Shown here piece after piece: positions 8,850-44,406 of a stretch of 64,000 nt of DNA; position 1 is the stretch's first letter; the number at the start of each line of letters is the position of its first letter. The position numbers were made by a program, and so were the translations under genes. The stretch lies in NCBI GenBank assembly GCA_002162095.1, contig CP021424.1, positions 1,612,001-1,676,000 on the forward strand, written 5' to 3'. Under the pieces are notes generated by a model. The model saw only the letters and a program-made list of their open reading frames with translations. It was not told the DNA's origin and searched no databases. The stretch is from Armatimonadetes bacterium Uphvl-Ar2 (GTDB lineage Bacteria > Armatimonadota > Fimbriimonadia > Fimbriimonadales > Fimbriimonadaceae).

Positions 8850-8992
8850 GACTGATACGTAGAGGGTGCCCTGTCGTGGGGCGCCTGAAAAATCAGGGAA
8901 AGTCCGGTGAGAATCCGGCGCTGTGCCGCAACGGTGAAAGCCCGTATGCCTGCTCTACGTGGATGACTACGTCATCGCTCACGAGCATGAGC
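8850..8992 (+). promoter_or_regulatory. Cobalamin (AdoCbl) riboswitch
   Basis: The receptor core carries the B12-box landmarks in order: GGGAA, CGGTGAGAATCCGG, CTGTGCCGCAACGGT and the closing GCCTGC. The outer P1 stem is a perfect 8-bp pairing of ACGTAGAG (8857-8864) with CTCTACGT (8953-8960). Directly downstream are two hairpins, GATGAC/GTCATC (8962-8976) and GCTCA/TGAGC (8977-8992), suitable as the kissing-loop or expression-platform part. There is no clear terminator before the ATG at 9072, so control of translation start is more likely. The regulated genes are a prepilin-like protein and a PEP-CTERM protein rather than B12 synthesis or transport genes of known type. Confidence 0.93.
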
Positions 8993-41941: not shown

Positions 41942-42030
<89 letters not shown>

Positions 42031-43923: not shown

Positions 43924-44004
43924 TTAGCAGCAGTCGCAGTTTTCGCAGCCTTCGGGGCAGTTGCACTCGCCGCCGGGGCAGCAAGGGCATTCCTTTTCAC
44001 TCAT
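43924..44004 (-). CDS. 26-residue cysteine-rich, metallothionein-like peptide
   Basis: A very short gene. The peptide has nine Cys in 26 residues at positions 6, 8, 9, 14, 16, 20, 23, 25 and 26 (motifs CPCC, CNC, CENCDCC), with no aromatic residue and no His. This is the composition of a metal-thiolate cluster peptide. It starts directly after the arsR stop codon (TGAATG) and has an AGGAGG ribosome binding site inside the arsR end, so it is translated with the regulator. The arrangement mirrors cyanobacterial smtB/smtA, where an ArsR-family repressor controls a metallothionein, but the peptide is half the length of SmtA. Metal and role are inferred. Confidence 0.72.
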   Translation of the reverse strand: MSEKECPCCPGGECNCPEGCENCDCC

Positions 44005-44370
44005 TCACGATCCTCCTCTAGGTAGTGATGTCCTAGTCGAGACGGCGGGTGCGCACACCGGAGTCTCGGCGAGATGACGAATCAGGGATTGAAGTGTCGC
44101 GTCTTCAACCCAGGCATAAACTTGGCGGCCGCGCATCTCGGTGGAGATCAGGCCGGCTTCGCGCAGCACGGAAAGATGATGGCTGAGGGTGCTGGGGGCG
44201 CAGGCCACGCTGCAGCAAGCCTCCTTGATGGAGACGGCGCGCCGCGCATCACTCCCAAAGCACTCGCCCGTCTCGGGGTCGTAGAGGGAGCCTCCACAAC
44301 CCCGGATGCACTGGAACACGGCCCACCGCGTGGGGGCACTCAGCGCCGCAAACGCCGGGACGGGATTCAT
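44005..44370 (-). CDS. ArsR family metal-sensing repressor, unusually cysteine-rich
   Basis: A 121-residue winged-helix repressor. The recognition helix is CAPSTLSHHLSVLREAGLI (57-75). Cysteines at 21, 25, 37, 52, 53, 57 and 106 include ACCSVAC at the start of the DNA-binding helices, the place where ArsR/CadC-type proteins hold metal, and CIRGC plus ECF near the N-terminus. It is expected to repress its own promoter and to release DNA on metal or metalloid binding. The 28-base inverted repeat that spans its promoter is the obvious operator. It is followed with no gap by the cysteine-rich peptide gene. TATCAT lies six bases before the ATG. Confidence 0.88.
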   Translation of the reverse strand: MNPVPAFAALSAPTRWAVFQCIRGCGGSLYDPETGECFGSDARRAVSIKEACCSVACAPSTLSHHLSVLREAGLISTEMRGRQVYAWVEDATLQSLIRHLAETPVCAPAVSTRTSLPRGGS

Positions 44371-44376
44371 GCCCCT

Positions 44377-44406
44377 ATGATATTTCGATATTCATCGAAA
44401 TATCAA
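44377..44406 (-). promoter_or_regulatory. arsR promoter with overlapping 12-bp inverted-repeat operator
   Basis: On the minus strand TTGATA and TATCAT are separated by 18 bases, and TATCAT is six bases from the ATG. A perfect inverted repeat, TGATATTTCGAT and ATCGAAATATCA with a 4-base spacer (44378-44405), spans the whole core promoter. Repressor binding there would exclude RNA polymerase. Confidence 0.85.

Follow-up and report, generated by a model that had tools for sequence, protein, structure and literature searches.

The window, i.e., the whole 64,000-nucleotide stretch of DNA analyzed here, belongs to a 2.63-Mb genome of the poorly studied phylum Armatimonadota (Fimbriimonadaceae-like) and contains a gene for an ArsR-type repressor that is directly followed by a very short, cysteine-rich frame. 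This locus raises the question of whether the short frame is a gene and, if so, what the repressor and the peptide do together. The reading preferred here, with a probability of about 0.8 and in the absence of any expression, metal-binding, or induction data, is a self-repressing, metal-released operon that produces a mini-metallothionein. The features of the locus are collected in Table 1.

Table 1. Features of the arsR-peptide locus in the window
Feature	Position	Strand	Description or basis
ArsR-type repressor gene	44370-44005	minus	121 aa, seven Cys
Cys-rich metallothionein-like peptide frame MSEKECPCCPGGECNCPEGCENCDCC	44004-43924	minus	26 aa, nine Cys
Shine-Dalgarno AGGAGG of the peptide, within the arsR 3' end	44012-44017	minus	sequence
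Predicted promoter/operator	44377-44406	minus	sequence; palindrome unique in 64 kb
Terminator-like hairpin closing the operon	~43908-43877	minus	fold of 60 nt 3' of the peptide stop

The anatomy of this locus was established computationally and agrees with the sequence-only reading. The latter had described an arsR-type gene joined without a gap (TGAATG) to a short Cys frame with its own AGGAGG, a repressor with seven cysteines and a peptide with nine, and a perfect 12-bp inverted repeat with a 4-base spacer lying over TTGATA-18-TATCAT, 6 nt before the ATG. All of these elements are present on the minus strand, and both cysteine counts are correct. The arsR TGA (44005-44007) abuts the peptide ATG (44004-44002), at a distance of 7 nt from the AGGAGG. 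The palindrome, TGATATTTCGAT-ATTC-ATCGAAATATCA, forms a perfect 12-4-12 repeat at positions 44378-44405 and overlaps TTGATA (44401-44406) and TATCAT (44377-44382), which are separated by an 18-nt spacer; the arsR ATG follows the end of this -10-like box after 6 nt. The 64 kb contain no other perfect inverted repeat whose arms measure 12 nucleotides or more and whose spacer does not exceed 10, and six first-order shuffles of the window gave one such repeat in total. Among the 754 window frames of 15-90 codons, only the 26-aa peptide contains at least 6 Cys at a share of at least 13%.

The fold of the 60 nt beyond the peptide stop has a z-score of -4.4 in the window genome and -7.1 in a sister genome. 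This terminator-like hairpin is possibly shared with the next gene, which is convergent, lies on the plus strand, and encodes a PEP-CTERM-like protein. Since the next gene is convergent, the unit in the window consists of two genes. No metal gene adjoins this copy of the arsR-peptide pair. Elsewhere in the window, on the plus strand, Rfam models matched an AdoCbl-II riboswitch (8884-8959, 39.4 bits) and a tRNA (41942-42027, 59.6 bits).

Recurrence of the pair was demonstrated by a survey of Armatimonadota. The survey was run through arsR because a profile search with the peptides failed: owing to their composition bias, the copy in the window itself scored no better than E = 0.1. Queries with arsR against the order and the phylum, with the flanks fetched, yielded 175 distinct arsR loci, and 879 non-arsR open reading frames of at least 120 codons from the same loci served as controls. 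A frame was counted as Cys-rich if it had at least 25% Cys and at least 7 Cys. Such frames, 19-47 aa long with 7-16 Cys, were found directly 3' of arsR at 27 of the 175 loci and directly after none of the 879 control frames (Fisher p of about 1e-22, an overstated value, as the loci are related). The frequency of 27/175 is biased, since the loci were gathered by arsR similarity and several of the queries already bore the pair. In total, 26 distinct Cys-rich frames were found in 843 kb, 25 of them directly 3' of arsR; the remaining one is an in-frame Cys tail of an ArsR protein (L100). The sequence-only reading had proposed a search for short Cys frames after related arsR genes and had guessed at a wider unannotated family. 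Within Armatimonadota, this guess is borne out by the 27 loci and by the synonymous-biased changes described below. The condition named there as refuting, a lack of conservation of the frame or its Cys pattern after orthologous arsR genes, was examined in this survey and did not apply.

Repressors of several types are accompanied by a peptide. In group A, comprising the window-type ArsR proteins, the peptide was found at 6 of 11 loci (G000, G054, G055, G046, G047, and G120); at the other group-A loci, the next gene is a pseudopilin-like gene, a selenoprotein gene, or nothing recognizable. The peptide was also found at three loci of group B, characterized by CC motifs, at 18 of the 30 fetched loci of group C (LCVCEL motif, CadC/ArsR-like), and with a fourth ArsR type in G045. 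Thus, the association spans distant ArsR lineages. Most often, the two frames overlap by 4 nt (ATGA, 11 of 27), and at three group-A and three group-C loci the peptide lies 3' of the arsR stop by a short gap of 18-41 and 11-20 nt, respectively. In two group-A loci (L009 and L010), a pseudopilin-like gene (KKAFTLIELLVVIAIIAIL) stands directly after arsR, its GTG start overlapping the arsR stop (GTGA); a metal sensor would not be expected to have such a partner.

Outside the phylum, no comparable peptide with 25% Cys was found after arsR at the 10 plasmid arsR loci sampled, and the plasmid records contained no close relative of the window ArsR. A tblastn search of plasmids with the 47-aa form of the peptide gave one match, judged to be due to chance. 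A single pattern scan of genome contigs, made with tight patterns, returned Armatimonadota only. The relatives of the window ArsR are found in MAGs named Armatimonadetes, Fimbriimonadaceae, or Chthonomonas.

The window repressor matches the Pfam families HTH_5 (29 bits, cut-off 22) and HTH_20 (28.4 bits, cut-off 27). Its score for the NCBIfam model NF033788 (HTH_metalloreg) is 47.5 bits, under the curated cut-off of 55, so the assignment to ArsR was made by Pfam and fold. The AlphaFold model is a winged helix with a pLDDT of 73.6, low in an inserted loop at residues 26-41, and its Foldseek matches include SrnR, the As(III)-bound ArsR 6j05, CzrA, and SmtB, as well as SqrR and HlyU. By Pfam and by this computed fold, the window repressor is a divergent member of the ArsR/SmtB family with an inserted Cys loop. 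Cys21, Cys25, Cys37, Cys53, and Cys57 are invariant in 11 relatives and fall partly in the low-confidence loop. In the model, Cys21 and Cys25 lie where helix 2 ends and Cys53 where helix 3 ends; Cys57 immediately precedes the recognition helix. The region of Cys21, Cys25, Cys53, and Cys57 is a plausible but unproven metal site, as far as a predicted structure can indicate one.

Conservation of the operator was likewise established by comparison of the relatives. Group-A promoters contain the TTCGAT-n4-ATCGAA core ahead of TATnAT or, at a minimum, the ATCGAA half-site, irrespective of whether the arsR gene has a peptide behind it. The exceptions are L012 and L013, the second of which has a different palindrome. 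A search of relatives for the 12-bp repeat had also been suggested in the sequence-only reading; the exact repeat is not universal, but its TTCGAT-n4-ATCGAA core or half-site does recur. A palindromic operator over the repressor's own promoter, as expected of the ArsR/SmtB family, is present at the level of sequence, with no binding data. Because 6 nt separate the -10-like box from the start codon in most group-A arsR genes, the arsR mRNA is inferred to be likely leaderless or near-leaderless.

The following circuit is proposed. Repression is inferred to result from ArsR sitting on the promoter-spanning palindrome, where it would keep both its own gene and the peptide frame from being transcribed. 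Release is inferred as well: a thiophilic metal or metalloid would bind the cysteines of the repressor, most likely Cys21, Cys25, Cys37, Cys53, and Cys57 at the end of helix 2, in the inserted loop, and beside the DNA-reading helix, and ArsR would leave the DNA. The freed mRNA would direct synthesis of ArsR and then, by translational coupling through the AGGAGG within arsR and the TGAATG junction, of the peptide. The nine thiols of the peptide are presumed to bind the metal as a small metal-thiolate cluster; as the free metal falls, ArsR would re-bind and the circuit would close itself.

The identity of the metal can only be inferred from the neighbors of the pair in relatives. A second arsR-peptide locus in the window genome (G000:C1:469661-470044; L200, L234) has a peptide frame interrupted by a premature TAA (MNEETCHCCSQG*), which is open in the sister genome (L199, L235). 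In both genomes (L199/L200), genes for an OEP protein and a CusB-like fusion protein lie 3' of arsR and the peptide. The group-A pair of G120 is located upstream of a gene for an outer-membrane efflux protein (OEP, L220), an island (L238) combines arsR and the peptide with an HMA P-type ATPase, and a gene recognized by eye as aquaporin-like follows the group-C arsR of G114 (L198). These neighbors, i.e., CzcC/CusB-like efflux, P-type ATPase, and aquaporin-like genes, fit Cd, Zn, Cu, or As; they point to soft metals or metalloids and single out none. The arsR-peptide-selenoprotein island found in three different genera (L237, L238, and L264, from G080, G012, and G070) shows between-genus identities of 97% (7.5 kb) and 99.9% (3.6 kb). 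Such similarity suggests a recent horizontal transfer and is what a mobile resistance module would be expected to show.

The same repressor and neighbors could be read as a system for sensing reactive sulfur, oxidants, or electrophiles, in which ArsR acts as a thiol switch like SqrR, BigR, or HlyU and the peptide as a polythiol scavenger. The presence of SqrR and HlyU among the fold matches, a weakly scoring BigR model, and a thioredoxin-like neighbor gene in one island agree with this possibility. We nevertheless regard it as unlikely: five invariant cysteines are more in keeping with a metal site than with a redox switch of two Cys, metal efflux genes are neighbors in relatives, and CxC/CxxC patterns without aromatic residues are typical of metallothioneins.

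The 27 peptides contain 36.1% Cys, are rich in Gly, Asn, and Pro, and lack Phe, Tyr, Trp, and Ile. They possess the traits of metallothioneins in the broad chemical sense, being small, about one-third Cys, patterned as CxC/CxxC, and free of aromatics. Since the spacing of the cysteines varies, the peptides form a compositional class and not one alignable family; in two relatives, the Cys runs are very dense (CC repeats in L196 and CRCCCCCCC in L092). No Pfam or NCBIfam match was found for 14 peptides at E-values up to 10, no metallothionein family model of the SmtA/BmtA type matched the peptides, and no PDB entry truly matched them. The best PDB hits of the 47-aa form were potassium-channel toxins (best E = 0.023), a weak similarity discarded as a coincidence of Cys spacing. 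A search of the open-licence literature, which is weak evidence, revealed no earlier report of such peptides after arsR.

Poly-Cys upstream frames in mycobacteria are thought to act as cysteine-supply attenuators, and short frames so dense in Cys codons, especially those of L196 and L092, do look like leader peptides. The frame could accordingly be a leader on which ribosomes stall according to the supply of cysteine or Cys-tRNA, with attenuation of a gene farther downstream, and a further gene does lie 3' of the peptide in several relatives. In the window, this explanation is unlikely because nothing follows on the strand of the peptide, where only the terminator-like hairpin and then the convergent gene are encountered. 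The non-Cys residues are constrained too, as seen from the lack of aromatics and the synonymous bias, and we consider attenuation very improbable overall.

Barely credible is a role of the peptide as a metal chaperone or co-sensor for ArsR or for an exporter, by which the response would be tuned and no metal stored. Tight coupling with arsR is compatible with such a role, as is the fusion-like Cys tail of the L100 ArsR together with the other Cys-rich ArsR tails. Against it, the peptides vary from 7 to 16 Cys and from 19 to 47 residues, which suits capacity and not a fixed interface, and one relative (L282) has no arsR in the fetched upstream stretch.

Two observations concern unusual arrangements of these sequences. 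The C-terminal tail of the L100 ArsR, encoded on the complement strand (AACCGGGPDQSGCCCGTTCTGSCCDCPDC), resembles a peptide fused to the repressor, and Cys-rich C-terminal ArsR tails are also present in L082, L059, and L064. In L282 (G090), a 46-aa peptide with 16 Cys precedes the UTGU protein discussed below.

Coding constraint was demonstrated for the related peptides. Between the window and the sister genome, the peptide frame is identical in 81 of 81 nucleotides, arsR in 344 of 366 (95% as protein), and a stretch of about 200 nt 3' of the peptide in 172 of 201; conservation of codons and of nucleotides cannot be separated for the peptide in this pair alone. In pairs of the 46-47-aa peptides, synonymous and nonsynonymous codon changes number 14/3, 11/2, 9/2, 9/4, and 11/5. 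An AGGAGG or a similar purine-rich site is found upstream of most homologous peptide frames, and a strong hairpin lies 3' of many arsR-peptide copies. A chance frame in GC-rich DNA, to which a length of only 26 codons and the lack of any database model might have pointed, was rejected as next to impossible given the recurrence after arsR against 0 of 879 controls, the synonymous-biased substitutions, and the Shine-Dalgarno sites.

The pair is followed in several relatives by a gene for a secreted protein of about 210 aa with a C-terminal Phe and two in-frame TGA codons, herein referred to as protein X, which is often the third gene of arsR-peptide operons. Its motif, VPTUTGUPGEG, lies about 1.5-1.6 kb into L258-L287 (e.g., L259, L261, L263, L269, and L272), and the UGA is conserved within a frame that is conserved on both sides. 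The recurring motif after several peptides had been considered as a structured RNA, an idea rejected because no Rfam match was found and the frames reveal a protein with two TGA. Matches to the family were found in 64 of 291 phylum genomes, some of them distant and without TGA; about 50 matches, from Armatimonadota, have exactly two TGA. Among 33 genomes, a tRNA-Sec match of at least 61 bits was found in 18 of the 19 UGA-bearing carriers (the exception, G059, is 77% complete) and in 4 of the 14 non-carriers. The window genome gave only tRNA-Sec cross-hits of about 45 bits, and no gene for protein X is present at the window arsR-peptide copy. Nucleotide conservation is strong just after the UGAs, where a SECIS hairpin would lie, with no covariation test behind it. 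Protein X matched nothing in Pfam and, in NCBIfam, a single model below threshold, and the UxxU passages of a 2026 selenoproteome review do not list it.

From these sequence features, protein X is a candidate for a new, apparently undescribed selenoprotein family. An undescribed metal(loid)-detoxification operon that joins arsR, a mini-metallothionein, and a di-selenocysteine secreted protein, of which genomes without Sec decoding, the window genome among them, keep the arsR-metallothionein core, has in our estimate a little better than an even chance of being real. If so, the operon represents both a new metallothionein class and a new selenoprotein family, and, with the UTGU protein included, it would be more novel than the arsR-peptide pair.

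The bacterial metallothioneins that have been studied well represent only a few lineages and sequence families, and peptides of 19-47 residues slip past gene callers and profile libraries. A phylum-wide arsR-metallothionein operon would supply about two dozen short sequences that are new and come with their own sensor, so that the spread of ribosomal metal-buffering peptides becomes a directly testable question; the arsR-peptide pairs could also serve as compact biosensor parts. According to a 2025 paper, the ars operon has yielded no gene for sequestering arsenic inside the cell (PMC12093948). If some of the peptides answer to arsenic, this gap would be filled.

The layout of a repressor plus a Cys-rich product is shared with SmtB/SmtA of Synechococcus PCC 7942, BxmR/BmtA of Oscillatoria brevis, and AzuR/NmtA of Anabaena. 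These systems combine an ArsR/SmtB-family repressor, a metallothionein, and a 12-2-12 repeat near the promoter; SmtB/SmtA forms a divergon, and AzuR is encoded apart from nmtA (PMC8790569). In contrast to SmtB/SmtA, arsR and the peptide frame form one operon here, abutting or overlapping each other, and the repeat has a 4-nt spacer (12-4-12). The window repressor shows conserved cysteines and no evident α5 Asp/His site of the SmtB type, and its peptide, unlike SmtA, matches no metallothionein model. SmtA is also about twice as long as the window peptide. The parallel with SmtB/SmtA drawn in the sequence-only reading thus holds as an analogy of layout and fails as a link to the metallothionein family, for which no model matched; on this comparison, the two pairs appear to be analogous and not homologous.

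Other known systems share single traits with the window pair. The LCVCEL motif of the group-C relatives is typical of the α3 site of CadC/ArsR repressors (Staphylococcus pI258, E. coli R773), and ArsR-family genes of Staphylococcus, Gordonia, and Deinococcus are among the plasmid matches, with identities of about 40%. The window group-A ArsR differs from these α3-site repressors in its inserted Cys loop (RGCGG...TGEC) and in the C-x3-C before the recognition helix. The copper metallothionein of Neurospora crassa, with 25 aa and 7 Cys, is like the window peptide in size, Cys density, CxC pairs, and absence of aromatics; it is eukaryotic and has no ArsR partner, and with no sequence match between the two, the likeness is compositional only. 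MymT of Mycobacterium tuberculosis resembles the window peptide as a small unannotated ORF: it was a non-annotated frame later shown to be a Cu(I)-binding metallothionein, of 4.9 kDa and with no arsR operon partner described (PMC7558416). The layout of a sensor plus a metallothionein is already known, and it is the class of peptides that is new.
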